From Patescibacteria group bacterium (GTDB taxonomy: Bacteria; Patescibacteriota; Patescibacteriia; Magasanikbacterales; UBA922), in NCBI GenBank assembly GCA_018823045.1, contig JAHJIX010000019.1, positions 1-37,842 on the forward strand: DNA of 37,842 nucleotides, in the 5' to 3' direction. The first letter of the stretch is position 1. Every line of letters starts with the position of its first letter. Shown here piece after piece: positions 5,553-31,682 of the stretch. A program made the position numbers and the translations under genes. The notes under the pieces were generated by a model, which was not told the DNA's origin, ran no database searches, and saw only the letters and a program-made list of their open reading frames with translations.

Positions 5553-5930
5553 TTATTTCACCATTCTTTGATATATCTTCATCGCTACCAACACTTCCAA
5601 TACACTCATCGGAACCGCATACCACAAAATGTTTAATGGGAAAATACCCATATTACCAACAACCAACCACATCAATACAAAACCAACAAACCAAGAAAGC
5701 CACACTGCAGACCAAAAGCTGTGTTTTTTATAAATCACATATATTGCATAAGCAAAGGCGAATCCCCATATTCCCCAAACTAATCCATTATACCATGCAC
5801 CTGGATATGGCATACCAATTGCTTCGTAATGATTCGTCCAAAAAGACTTAAGTAAAAATTCGTTGCGAAAAAATTCAAAAAAATTAATCCAAAGTCCTGC
5901 AAAAAACACAGACAATATTGTTTTCTTCAT
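5553..5930 (-). CDS. Small membrane protein, about four TM segments
   Basis: A 125-residue, strongly hydrophobic protein with an N-terminal segment MKKTILSVFFAGLWINFFEF and further membrane spans near residues 47-65, 71-90 and 98-118. Loops are short and aromatic. I recognise no catalytic motif and cannot assign a family. No Shine-Dalgarno precedes the ATG. It lies 23 bp after the start side of the prepilin block, in the same direction, so it may be the last gene of that transcript. Confidence 0.65.
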   Translation of the reverse strand: MKKTILSVFFAGLWINFFEFFRNEFLLKSFWTNHYEAIGMPYPGAWYNGLVWGIWGFAFAYAIYVIYKKHSFWSAVWLSWFVGFVLMWLVVGNMGIFPLNILWYAVPMSVLEVLVAMKIYQRMVK

Positions 5931-5953
5931 ATTTCAAAAAAATAAAAACAGGG

Positions 5954-8900
5954 TTATAAGGGATATAAATATTCCCCAGAAATCACTTCAATATCTACTT
6001 CACCTGGCCTCGTCCAAGCAACCGACATATGATCACCACCATATCCTTCTTGAAAAATGCCTTCTATATAATATCTTTGTCCAGCCTGAAGCGTGATAGG
6101 AATAGAATGTTGTGAAGGATATTTTGTCCATAATTGATATGTTGTCCAACCAGGAACTTCTGCAATCTTCGATTTATTTGCTTCATTACTATCTGAAGAA
6201 AGCCATAATTCGCCATAATCATCACTTGCAATATAAAAAGTATATTCCCCTGTCTCTGGTGCTTCTAATAAAGCTTCCACCCTAGCCCCATAAGCATTTC
6301 CAATATTTTGTGGAACTTCAAAGCTCGTGATAAGAGCAGAACTATGAGGAGCATCAGGATAATCAACACGTGCTTTAAGAGTGGCTATTGAAACATTTCC
6401 AATATTATTCCAATAATGCACTTGAATAGGGTCTCTCCAATCGGGATCAGTATCTTCATCGAGCTGTGTATAAGGAGAGATAAAATCACTAACGATAACT
6501 TGAATATTTGCATTACTTGGTGTTATCCAAGCAACAGAGACATGATCTTCATCATCTCCTTCTTTATGCAATACTTCAAAATAATATTTTTCACCCGCTT
6601 GCAAAGAAATTGGATTGGATGATTGTTCTGCATAATCATCCCAATCACGAAAAACAGTCCAAGCAGGTACCGATGCAATAAGATTTTTATGAGAGGCAAA
6701 TTGATCATTACTAAAATACAATTGAGAATTATCATCACTTGCAATATAAAAAGTATACTCCCCTGTTTCAGGTGGAAAAATAAATCCTCTCATACGAGAA
6801 CCATAATAATCTCCATGAGCAGAAAATTCTAAACTTGTGAGAATACTTGTGCTATCAGGATTATATGGATAATTATTATTACTTGTCAAATCAGCAATAC
6901 TTAAACCACTTAGGCTTTCCCAAAAATCAATATTTATATAACCCAAAGCAGCTAGATTGGGTTTTGTATCATTATATTCTTGCAAAATTTCTTCAGAACT
7001 TCGAATCGAATTATACAGATACACTTCATCAATAATTCCATCAATAGCAGCACTCGTACCTGCATAATCAGAACCTATATAAAGTTTTGCAAGTGTACCC
7101 CCTGTAGGTGCATTTGCGTACACGAAACTATCAAGTTCCTCTCCGTTAATATAGAGACGAACTTCACTCGTCGCAGCTTCACGAACAAGAGCTATATGAT
7201 AAAAAGTATCAGCAACGAAATTTGCATCAAAAATATATTGAACATTTGATCCTTGAGCATACTCATGTTTATATTCTACATCACCATTACTTTCTAGCTG
7301 TAATTCATAGAGTGTATTATCTTCTTCATCTTCTCCAATTCGTGAATAAACCAAAAATGTCCTGCTTGAAATACTATCAAGTTTTGTCCAAAATGAAATA
7401 GATAAATCTCCTACAATTTGCAAATCTTCTGAAAGAGGAATATCAATATAATCCGTAGAATTATCTAAATGAAGTGCATTATTCAACACCCCTTCTTCAA
7501 ATTCTGTTCCCTGTGCTGTTGCATCATTATTTCCTTCTTGATCAAGCAAATTATCATCAAAATTCCAGTAGGATACAAGACCTTCTAGTGCTTCTGAACA
7601 ATCAGCAACATCATTGTCATTGATATCCAAATCACCTGGCCAAGGATTATCCAAAGGAAAAGCATCTTCTGAAAGATCTAAACGATCCCAATAATTTCCA
7701 GCACAGGATTCATCATCAAAAATATTATTATCTTTATCCCCTTGAACAATCGTATAATTGGTACTTTGATAAAAATTATTATAGTAAACATTATTATTGA
7801 TTGCACCATTATAAAACTGTAAAATACTTTTATCCGTAGTAATGGTATTCAAACGAATCGTATTATTTTCTGAAAATTGTCCACTCGTTTGTCGCCCATT
7901 GATCTGAATTCCTGTCTCTGCATTACCATCCAGAACGTCAAGCGTAATAGTATTTCCTTCTATAAGAGCATTATCAATTCGAGCAAGATTAATACCTCGA
8001 CTATTCACAACATTGGAAGTAATTGTATTATTTTTAATAATAAAGGTATCATGATCTGGATCATTATTACTTGGATTACTCGCATAGATAGCACTGCTAA
8101 AACCATCAATAATACAATTTTGTACGGTAATATTACTTAAATTTCCCCATTGCCCAAACATAATTCCTTTTCCTGTATCAGATCCTTGAATCATATGTCC
8201 ATCACAATCAAATACGATACCTACACTATCATCAAGAATTCTAAATCCATCTCCACAAAAAAAATAATCTCTATCCAAAACAATTGATTCTGTTATTTCT
8301 ATTTCATTTTCTTGACAAACTTCAGGAGCTTCATCTTCCATTGGAACCGCATAAGAACTGAAATGCTCTGCAGTGAAAGTTAAAGTATCCCCATTACAAG
8401 TTATATTCGTACAACTTGGATCTGTCCCCGCATTACAAAGAGCTCCATTATTGATCACATCTGTGGAACTTGCAAAATTCCCTGCTGACCAATAAATATC
8501 TGTTGGGCAAGTTACATTATGAAGAGTTAGGCTTACCTCATGATCAAAACTCGGATCTAAATTGGCAAGATTTACACTTATAAGCCCTTCCCCTATTTGA
8601 ACATTGCTATCATAATCTTCACCACTGGCGTCAACCGTATACCCTACAGGAAATGTAATAGAACCATGCGCATTAGCAAGTATCATATTATTAACGGCTG
8701 TTAAATCTGGTACTGAAGTAAAATCAGTACTGCCTGGATACTCACTATACAATGGCAAAGAACCAACTTGCCCGGTAAAACAACTTATAGCTTGAATTTG
8801 TCTATCATCAACAGAAACAGCATAATAGGTTTGTTCGTCTGAACCAAATTTTGGATCTTTTGGGATCCGCGGGAGATAAGTTGCCAATGTATTGCTTAAA

Positions 8901-29541: not shown

Positions 29542-29780
29542 TTATTCACTATATTCCTTTAATTTAGCTATAAGCTGATCTATCACCTCTAACTGTTTAG
29601 CACTCATCCCTTTTTTTAACTCAATGTTATTTTATCAGTAAGAGCCCAAATCAGCGAATCTACCAAAACATCAGCCTCTTCTGGATCCATGACAGCAAAA
29701 GTCATATATGCCGGCAAGTAATACTGTTGAGCTTCACTATTTAGTAGAGGAAAAGAATCACGTTGCCGAGCAAGCATCTT
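29542..29780 (-). pseudogene. Frameshifted C-terminal remnant of a small protein (DUF6714-like?)
   Basis: Just downstream of the tRNA on the same strand, one frame reads ARQRDSFPLLNSEAQQYYLP, then AYMTFAVMDPEEADVLVDSL, then IWALTDK and soon a stop at 29616. A neighbouring frame continues with LKKGMSAKQLEVIDQLIAKL and KEYSE to a TAA at 29542. Joined by a one-base shift near 29625-29635 they read as one natural protein end. The YYLPAY phrase with an Asp-rich turn and a terminal helix recalls DUF6714-type proteins, which I hold only loosely. The N-terminal part is absent; the tRNA lies there instead. Confidence 0.5.
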
Positions 29781-29782
29781 AA

Positions 29783-29858
29783 TGGAGCCATCATCCAGGA
29801 TTGAACTGGAGACCTCAGCCTTACCATGGCTGCGCTCTACCAACTGAGCTATGATGGC
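29783..29858 (-). tRNA. tRNA-Thr (GGU), CCA encoded
   Basis: Folded by hand: acceptor GCCATCA/TGATGGC, D arm GCTC/GAGC, anticodon stem CAGCC/GGCTG with loop ATGGTAA (anticodon GGT, T33 present), variable AGGTC, T arm TCCAG/CTGGA with TTCAATC, discriminator T and encoded CCA. All stems pair. It is transcribed from a strong promoter at 29924-29952 through an unusual leader. Confidence 0.95.
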
Positions 29859-29908
29859 GTGTAAACCAACTGCCTGCCCGCCTCGGGCGGGAGCTATGAT
29901 GGCGTGTA
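29839..29908 (-). repeat. Duplicated tRNA-Thr 5' end interrupted by a GC-rich palindrome
   Basis: A 25-bp unit covering the first about 20 nt of tRNA-Thr plus 5 flanking bases (29839-29863) occurs again at 29865-29908. The upstream copy is split by a 19-bp insertion (29873-29891), cctgCCCGCCtcgGGCGGG, a GC-rich hairpin alien to the surrounding AT-rich DNA. Confidence 0.9.
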
Positions 29909-29923
29909 CTCTAATATGCCAAA

Positions 29924-29952
29924 AGTATATCAATATTTTGTATATTCGTCAA
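29924..29952 (-). promoter_or_regulatory. tRNA-Thr promoter
   Basis: Minus strand TTGACG (29947-29952), 17 bp, TATACT (29924-29929). The start site should be near 29917, so the precursor includes the broken partial tRNA copy. Confidence 0.75.
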
Positions 29953-30016: not shown

Positions 30017-30385
30017 ATGAATAAAACAATAGCAATTCTCCCCGTATTATTTCTTACCGTATTTCTCTCTGGATGTGGGCAAAGTACAGAGCCAACTCCT
30101 GAAACAACACCTGAAGAAACGCAAACACCTATTGAAGAAGTGCTCCCAACAGAAAAAGATAATAGTATCAGTCTAAGTGATATACAAAAGCATAATACCA
30201 AAGAAGATTGCTGGACTGCTATTGATGGAAAAGTCTATGATATCAGCCCATATATTGCCCTTGGAGTACACAAACCAGTCATTGTCAAAGGTTGTGGCAT
30301 TGATTCAAGTGCGATGTTTGCACGTGACCATGGAGAAAGTGACCGCATGTTATTACCTGATTACTACATTGGAGAATTGAAATAA
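30017..30385 (+). CDS. Lipoprotein with cytochrome b5-like haem-binding domain
   Basis: A 122-residue lipoprotein: signal segment, lipobox LSGC (Cys20), a Pro/Glu/Thr linker (22-47), then a cytochrome b5-like domain (52-122). The fold markers SLSDIQKHNTKEDCWTAIDG, KVYDISPYI and DYYIGEL are in the family order. The usual HPGG is HKPV, with H85 as first ligand, and the FxxxH ending FARDH gives H105 as second ligand. Haem binding is therefore likely but not certain. It should sit on the outer face of the cytoplasmic membrane. The flavocytochrome gene follows after a terminator, so a one-electron acceptor or donor role with that enzyme is inferred. Confidence 0.85.
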   Translation: MNKTIAILPVLFLTVFLSGCGQSTEPTPETTPEETQTPIEEVLPTEKDNSISLSDIQKHNTKEDCWTAIDGKVYDISPYIALGVHKPVIVKGCGIDSSAMFARDHGESDRMLLPDYYIGELK

Positions 30386-30400
30386 TATTTTTATTTTTTT

Positions 30401-30431
30401 CATAAAGCAGACTATATCAGTCTGTTTTATG
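30401..30431 (+). terminator. Terminator after the b5-like gene
   Basis: CATAAAGCAGACT and AGTCTGTTTTATG pair around ATATC; the right arm supplies the T-rich tail. It runs into the -10 of the next gene. Confidence 0.65.
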
Positions 30432-30438
30432 TTATACT
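30430..30438 (+). promoter_or_regulatory. Extended -10 of the ferric-reductase-like gene
   Basis: TGTTATACT, about 30 bp before the ATG at 30468. The TG overlaps the terminator of the previous gene; no clear -35. Confidence 0.45.
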
Positions 30439-30467
30439 TAATTGAATATTACTAATGATTATACAAT

Positions 30468-31682
30468 ATGTTTACTGATCTCACCCTTACAGCAATCCTT
30501 TATGACCTTGGGCGACTTACTGGTCTTATTGCATTTTTTGGCTTAGGCATATTAGTCTTTGCTGGTGATACAACCCGATTTTTTGATCGTTTTTTTGGTT
30601 TTGATCGACTGATTCCATTTTTAAAAAAACTCTCTTACGGCACTGCTGTTTTTCTGCTCCTTCATCCCATATTCTTCATGATAGCTAAACAAAAGTTTCT
30701 TGCCTATCTCATTCCTGATTTCTTTTATTTGCACCTTGCCCTGGGCATTGTTGCCTTTTACTTATTTATCATCGTTATGATCGCGTCAGCGCTCTACAAA
30801 CGCATTTCTCATCTTGCCTGGCAATATTTACATGTGCTTAACTACATCTTATTTTTTATCAGCCTACAACACGCCAAACATTGGGGATCATCTTCTTCAT
30901 ATTGGTATATAAGTGCGAGTTATCAAGCGATGCTCTTTCTTATTGTTATAGGACTCATTTATCGGGCACAACATAAAATTCGTCACAAAACAAAAGCATA
31001 TCCAATTAAAAACATTATAAACGAAAACCACGATACAAAAACTTTTGTATTTGATATGGGAGAAAAACAACATTTTCAAGCAGGACAATTTTGTTTACTC
31101 CGCATACACGATAAAACAAGAAAATTACATGCCCGCCATCCATTTACCATGTCTAATGCTCCAGGAAGTACCGAACTCGCATTTACTATTAAACAATCCG
31201 GTCGATTTACTGAGGCATTATTTCAATTAAAAAAAGGAGACAAAGTCCTCATTGAAGGCCCCTTTGGTATCTTCACTAAAAAAAGATGCACAACAAAAAG
31301 ACAGGTCTTTATTGCAGGTGGTGTTGGCATTACTCCATTTAAAAGCATGCTTGAAGATCCATCAACAGAAAATGATCCAAGAAAAATATTCCTTTTTTAT
31401 GGAGCGCGCAGCAAAAAAAACATGCTATTTGAAGACTTTTTTTCCAAAAAACTCTCTAAAAAGTTTCACGCGATTTATTGTCTTAGTCAAGAAAAAAAAT
31501 CAGATGGTATTTGTGAAATTGGCTATATTGATGAAAAAATACTTCTCAAATATATCACATCATTTGAAGAAACCTGCTTTTATATTTGTGGTCCAGAAGC
31601 AATGAAACAATCAGTTATAGGCATTCTAAAAAAACACAAGGTTCCAAAAGAACATATTATTGTAGAACATTTTTATTGGTAA
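30468..31682 (+). CDS. Ferric-reductase-like membrane flavocytochrome
   Basis: A 404-residue protein. The first about 165 residues hold six membrane segments with histidines suited to haem ligation (H66, H89, H122, H135), as in ferric reductase/YedZ-type domains. The remainder is an FNR module: FAD-binding RHPFTMSNAPGS, a phosphate-binding GEGP-like IEGPFG, NAD(P)-binding GGVGITPFKSM (about 280-290) and the C-terminal CGPEAM. It would take electrons from cytoplasmic NAD(P)H through FAD and haems to an acceptor outside, possibly metal, oxygen or the b5-like lipoprotein encoded just upstream. Substrate is inferred only. Start chosen at 30468 because the TM segment follows at once. Confidence 0.9.
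   Translation: MFTDLTLTAILYDLGRLTGLIAFFGLGILVFAGDTTRFFDRFFGFDRLIPFLKKLSYGTAVFLLLHPIFFMIAKQKFLAYLIPDFFYLHLALGIVAFYLFIIVMIASALYKRISHLAWQYLHVLNYILFFISLQHAKHWGSSSSYWYISASYQAMLFLIVIGLIYRAQHKIRHKTKAYPIKNIINENHDTKTFVFDMGEKQHFQAGQFCLLRIHDKTRKLHARHPFTMSNAPGSTELAFTIKQSGRFTEALFQLKKGDKVLIEGPFGIFTKKRCTTKRQVFIAGGVGITPFKSMLEDPSTENDPRKIFLFYGARSKKNMLFEDFFSKKLSKKFHAIYCLSQEKKSDGICEIGYIDEKILLKYITSFEETCFYICGPEAMKQSVIGILKKHKVPKEHIIVEHFYW

Follow-up and report, generated by a model that had tools for sequence, protein, structure and literature searches.

It is probable that a small mobile hairpin entered the D-arm of a working tRNA-Thr gene in the window (the whole 37,842-nucleotide stretch of DNA analyzed here) and that the 5' end of this gene was duplicated, leaving a split stub followed by an intact tRNA. 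tRNA-Thr(GGT) was the sole tRNA gene of the window according to ARAGORN and Rfam, and no Rfam 15 family other than tRNA was found above its gathering score in the window. On the minus strand, nt 1-20 of the tRNA and 5 flanking bases occurred in two copies at a distance of 45 bp; the outer one was split after tRNA nt 12 by the 19-nt sequence CCCGCC-CGA-GGCGGG-CAGG. The order on this strand was TACAC-GCCATCATAGCT-[CCCGCCCGAGGCGGGCAGG]-CAGTTGGT-T-TACAC-GCCATCATAGCTCAGTTGGT... or, read from further upstream, TTGACG-17-TATACT - 15 nt - TACAC - GCCATCATAGCT - CCCGCCCGAGGCGGGCAGG - CAGTTGGT - T - TACAC - GCCATCATAGCTCAGTTGGTAGAGC... A repeat search returned an exact 18-nt direct repeat at 29846-29863 and 29891-29908 with a spacing of 45. 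The initial annotation had described a duplicated unit of 5 flanking bases plus tRNA nt 1-20, which agreed with both the sequence and the exact direct repeat, and a 19-nt GC-rich hairpin inside the outer copy, which was indeed present at 29873..29891, after tRNA nt 12. The features of the locus were as follows.

29783..29858, minus strand: intact tRNA-Thr(GGT), with nt 1 at 29858 and an encoded 3' CCA (ARAGORN; Rfam RF00005, 64.3 bits at 29786-29858)
29859..29863, minus strand: inner copy of the duplicated 5-nt flank, TACAC on the minus strand (exact direct repeat; sequence)
29865..29872, minus strand: second piece of the stub, a copy of tRNA nt 13-20, CAGTTGGT (sequence)
29873..29891, minus strand: 19-nt hairpin insert with a 6-bp stem and a one-sided CAGG tail toward the intact tRNA (sequence; consensus of relatives, YCCGCC-n-GGCGGRCARG)
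29892..29903, minus strand: first piece of the stub, a copy of tRNA nt 1-12, GCCATCATAGCT (12/12 identical to the intact tRNA)
29904..29908, minus strand: outer copy of the duplicated 5-nt flank, TACAC (exact direct repeat; sequence)
29924..29952, minus strand: promoter-like site TTGACG-17-TATACT, 20 nt before nt 1 of the stub and 65 nt before nt 1 of the intact tRNA (consensus scan; hexamers and spacing common to G001, another species of the same genus as the window's genome, G000, and to G015 and stub-free relatives)

Chance or an annotation artefact was ruled out by the exact repeat, by recurrence elsewhere, and by a control in which the 5' ends of other tRNAs stood upstream of a tRNA in 7 of 1324 comparisons. 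Directly downstream of the tRNA-Thr gene, the minus strand at 29616-29783 carried a 53-aa open reading with a sub-threshold DUF6714 match (E 0.0012); it was missing from the aligned G001 locus and may be the remnant of a gene that stayed behind 3' of tRNA-Thr. The plus strand at 30017-31682 held a cytochrome-b5-like lipoprotein, followed by a ferric-reductase-like membrane oxidoreductase.

The distance from the promoter to nt 1 of the stub was 20, 19, and 12 nt in G000, G001, and G015, respectively, and the distance to the intact tRNA was 65, 97, and 56 nt. In most stub-free relatives, a promoter of the same kind stood 13-18 nt before the tRNA; some had longer or unclear leaders. The stub occupied the original start position of the tRNA, and the intact tRNA was displaced downstream. 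Because the stub stands at the start distance expected of the promoter, the insertion appears to have hit a working gene, with the intact tRNA rebuilt downstream. Of all the evidence against an acquired leader, this placement carries the most weight.

The palindrome CCCGCCnnnGGCGGG was searched for in its own 1.16-Mb genome, as the initial annotation had proposed, and occurred exactly once; one further, poor match was returned when 3 mismatches were allowed in a 21-mer. A second case was present in this genome at tRNA-Ile(TAT) (G000:C24, L083, 56388-56460), with the order GCGCCCATAGCT-[TCTGCCTATGCTAAAGTTTCGGCGGGCAAG]-CAGG...-GCGCCTATAGCTCAG. Its hairpin was slightly decayed (TCTGCC...GGCGGGCAAG) and its stub carried one mismatch, so that the genome has two known hairpin-split stubs, one of them decayed. 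For the comparison with relatives, also proposed earlier, tRNA-Thr loci were extracted from 59 related genomes and 35 loci were listed. An upstream 5' tRNA-Thr stub, in which a palindrome or what is left of one interrupted the sequence at nt 11-13, was found at 7 of the 35 listed loci (G000, G001 with a decayed hairpin, G015, G012, G018 weakly, G052, and G055), and the palindromes of G052 and G055 were quite unlike those of the other tRNA-Thr stubs. All 5' stubs in the tRNA-Thr sample were broken by a palindrome or its remains, none being hairpin-free, as expected if insertion and duplication were coupled. The contig ends G005:C47, G009:C6, G015:C3, and G004:C1 fell no more than about 250 nt from a tRNA-Thr gene or fragment, and these breaks look as if local repeats confuse assembly.

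The same construction recurred at other tRNA genes. It stood before tRNA-Lys in G035, and a pattern search of 46 family genomes added tRNA-Val and tRNA-Met cases. A tRNA-motif pattern was found in 9 of 86 genomes of the order, and the forward pattern gave 15 matches in 14 of 380 Patescibacteria genomes; about 11 of the 13 loci read in this phylum sample stood at their own tRNA. Approximately 85,000 species genomes were then scanned for TAGCT-YCCGCC-n-GGCGGRCARG, which returned at least 117 stretches. The 80 loci listed held 88 matches. For 56 of these, a tRNA was located on the same strand fewer than 400 nt downstream, and its 5' end usually matched that of the stub. Altogether, a 5' stub of the neighboring tRNA itself, split by a YCCGCC...GGCGGRCARG hairpin, was present at at least 57 loci and in at least 11 isotypes. 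The phyla among the matches listed were Patescibacteria (many lineages), Marinimicrobia, Bacteroidota, Ignavibacteria, Kiritimatiellota, Omnitrophota, and Marinamargulisbacteria; many of these genomes are metagenome bins, and single assignments may be wrong. When the stub loci were checked against Rfam 15, only tRNA, tmRNA, rRNA, and RNase P matched. A full-text literature search, with subscription papers and preprints outside its range, turned up studies of REP/RAYT systems and of tRNA fragments that stem from integration; it found no published account of hairpin-split 5' tRNA stubs, and we provisionally regard them as previously undescribed. Their recurrence across tRNA genes and phyla points to repeated, site-specific insertion. 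The earlier proposal that a small mobile palindrome had inserted into the tRNA thus holds as the best reading, but not as a one-off event. Nor need the insertion be recent, as had been supposed, since G001 carries the same stub (12/12 nt) with a decayed hairpin; the insertion may predate the split of G000 and G001, unless there were two independent insertions.

In 55 of the 56 curated loci taken from the matches listed, tRNA nt 12 was directly followed by the hairpin; this count, like the other position and sequence counts, is partly conditioned by the TAGCT plus hairpin built into most search patterns. When the family was searched by the hairpin alone, with no tRNA motif, insertions were again found at nt 11-12, among them some in the contexts TAGTT (Arg), TCGTT (Arg), and TAGC (Cys). 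TAGCT as the sole sequence target was therefore rejected: tRNAs with TAGTT and TCGTT were struck at the same position, and hairpins outside tRNAs were not preceded by TAGCT, so that the position in the tRNA seems to matter. An exception was L130, in which a TAGCT elsewhere in an fMet-like relic was used. The orientation was fixed as well. No reversed hairpin was found inside a stub among 246, and the reversed-hairpin pattern gave 0 matches in the 380 Patescibacteria genomes, compared with the 15 forward matches. The idea that the arrangement arose generally by snap-back, with inverted arms that match the local tRNA, was also considered and set aside; such arms were clear in L162 and L175 and reached at least 6 nt in only 8 of 56 loci.

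The stub lay upstream of the intact tRNA in 57 cases and downstream only in 1 among the matches listed. This asymmetry bears on the possibility that a whole-gene tandem duplication came first and that a palindrome later entered the upstream copy, by then redundant, of which erosion left only the 5' end. Either of two complete tandem copies should then have been struck about equally, and the observed counts disfavor such an invasion. Beyond the hairpin, moreover, the tRNA copy ran at most 9 nt further in 50 of 56 curated loci, whereas erosion would be expected to stop at scattered points, and the hairpin-free 5' stubs that this order of events would lead one to look for were missing from the tRNA-Thr sample. 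Some loci do fit it: the outer copies of L176 and L130 were almost complete and had hairpins in two arms, those of L130 forming a tandem array, and some relics came from a tRNA other than the neighbor (L108, L146). On balance, we assign this order of events a low probability. The L130 array (reverse strand, 7450-7930, in a Flavobacteriales bin) comprised five units of about 118 bp, each resembling an fMet-type relic and each with hairpins in two arms.

Insertion into a working gene, which we prefer, would proceed as follows. A small hairpin (YCCGCC-loop-GGCGGR with a one-sided CARG tail) would insert 3' of nt 12 in the tRNA-Thr D-arm, and the same event would duplicate the 5' end of the gene, consisting of a short flank and nt 1-20. 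The hairpin-split stub would remain at the old start by the promoter, and an intact tRNA would be regenerated just downstream. We infer that insertion and duplication are a single event, for example through slippage of the nascent strand after hairpin insertion; in such a one-step model, the hairpin would enter one strand after nt 12 and the growing strand would re-anneal upstream. The cell would survive the insertion because a whole tRNA is left behind. Presumably only events that copy at least nt 1-12 give a viable tRNA, and selection for a working tRNA would leave the self-restoring events. The stub would then be transcribed as an inert or mildly competing leader and removed by RNase P.

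The extent of the duplication was examined against this model. The 5' flank was duplicated along with the tRNA start in 16 of 55 loci, compared with 7% in the control, and the flank duplication was exact over 99, 37, and 15 nt in L165, L114, and L162, respectively. About 70% of the stubs had no duplicated flank, though their nt 1-12 were exact, indicating that duplication often begins at nt 1 or close to it, which is not what simple slippage would lead one to expect.

The stub and hairpin might instead be retained as a functional leader with control over tRNA maturation; they could, for instance, compete for the acceptor 3' strand ahead of cleavage by RNase P. In the folding ensemble of the window's precursor, the acceptor 3' strand was taken by the stub, whose nt 1-7 can pair with it, at a share of about 0.25 and by the true 5' end at about 0.75, which makes leader competition plausible in the model. 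In three genomes of genus g9, the stub, the hairpin, and the next ten bases were better conserved than the surrounding leader and spacer; between G000 and G001, the stub was identical over 12 nt and the hairpin and leader had changed. This better conservation of stub and hairpin in g9, and of the stub in G000 and G001, hints at selection, and together with the folding share it suggests that a minor effect of the stub on processing is possible. The patchy distribution (7/35 listed tRNA-Thr loci, 9/86 genomes of the order, and 14/380 of the phylum) nevertheless argues against a conserved function, each lineage having different tRNAs and palindromes and G001 a decayed hairpin. The initial annotation had set a functional leader conserved in distant relatives against its own reading, and none was found: the stub was patchy at tRNA-Thr and its palindromes differed in sequence. 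A fixed functional leader is therefore unlikely.

Mobile elements are known to give rise to partial tRNA duplications and attR sites when they integrate (PMC9897764), and a recombinase could have used the tRNA 5' end as an att site, with the element supplying a new 5' end and later being mostly deleted to leave attL and the intact tRNA. This would fit flankless duplication from nt 1, with attP supplying the tRNA 5' end, but it is very unlikely. In the loci read, the inserts measured tens to about 250 nt and the hairpin was in every case next to nt 11-12; a gene would not fit between stub and tRNA, with 14-223 nt separating the hairpin from the intact tRNA; and every locus would need to have been almost fully deleted. 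The stubs resemble att-site tRNA fragments in that a partial tRNA copy lies beside an intact one. Those fragments accompany integrated elements (PMC9897764), whereas here the 5' end is copied, an insert of tens of nt is present, and a palindrome stands at a fixed place within the partial copy.

Partial copies of tRNA 3' ends were found downstream of 24 of 271 tRNAs, compared with 2 of 1619 control comparisons, and often had a palindrome in the T-arm or anticodon arm. Mirror-image 3' relics downstream of an intact tRNA were seen in L029, L066, L010, L011, L199, and L149; the anticodon arm or T-arm of these relics carried a palindrome. In L029, L149, and L199, an upstream 5' stub and a downstream 3' relic, taken together, correspond to a single tRNA that encloses the intact tRNA within its D-loop. 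In L188 (approximately 5864-6100), an intact tRNA-Gly was flanked by the two halves of another tRNA-Gly copy, the 5' half comprising nt 1-31 and the hairpin; here the nesting was in the anticodon loop, and 15-nt inverted arms, ACATTACAAAAATCT and AGATTTTTGTAATGT, surrounded the inner tRNA. The 3' relics and nested tRNAs may be further products of the same process. Downstream of tRNA-Val, -Arg, and -Pro (L072, L112, and L213, respectively), a conserved-looking stretch of about 100 nt, GAACGCYGGAGC ... GCGAGGCGGTGGC, preceded 3' tRNA relics, and no Rfam family matched it at these loci. At tRNA-Arg(GCG) of genus g9 (L330, L350, L353), the intact tRNA of two of the three species shared the C of the stub where the acceptor 3' strand calls for T, and the third paired perfectly; the shared C hints at sequence transfer from stub to gene.

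The YCCGCC-loop-GGCGGR hairpin with its right-hand CARG tail was present in about 130 copies in the 46 family genomes, with up to 16 per genome and one exact match in the window's own genome. No fixed sequence was found to the left of YCCGCC in the non-tRNA copies of the family genomes. Of 116 hairpins, 21 lay no more than 300 nt from a tRNA, several times above the roughly 3% estimated from tRNA density. In the family, hairpin copies per genome correlated with Y1-transposase matches (Spearman 0.60; 0.48 at genus level, p = 0.006), and no hairpin was found within about 1.5 kb of 30 Y1-transposase loci, that of G000 included. The G000 locus (G000:C15:147329-147553, L262) encoded a single transposase of the Y1 (IS200/RAYT-like) type, divergent in sequence, and no CARG-tailed hairpin lay close to it.

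REP elements are GTAG- and CGTC-tagged palindromes with RAYT transposases (PMC3733652, PMC2817692), and RAYT genes have been described as always flanked by two inverted REPs (PMC2817692). Like these, the present hairpin is short and GC-rich, has a conserved one-sided unpaired tetranucleotide, variable loops, and stem variants, and varies in copy number with Y1 transposase genes in the family; it also appears dispersed in family genomes, against a single exact match in the window's own genome. Its tag, however, is CARG (CYTG on the other strand) rather than GTAG or CGTC, the 30 Y1 loci had no hairpin flanks, and it follows nt 12 of tRNA genes whose 5' end is duplicated, a setting on which the REP papers are silent. 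The hairpin works like a REP-type palindrome, yet membership of REP/RAYT is not supported, having failed on the tag and on Y1 genes without flanking hairpins. Rickettsia palindromic elements are also mobile palindromes that insert within genes; they are longer and best known from open reading frames, and we know of no tRNA-restoring 5' duplication for them.

More tentatively, these minimal mobile hairpins might form a new class in several phyla that prefers tRNA genes, inserts in one orientation after nt 12, copies the 5' end in the same event, and leaves a working tRNA, with the 3' relics and doubly framed tRNAs (L029, L149, L188, L199) arising from the same process at other arms. If this is true, essential and often single-copy tRNA genes would be a repeated landing site for tiny hairpins that insert at one fixed position in one orientation and repair their target in the process, and the mobilizing enzyme would become findable. 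It would represent a way into an essential gene without death of the host and would account for the hairpin-bearing tRNA stubs across phyla.
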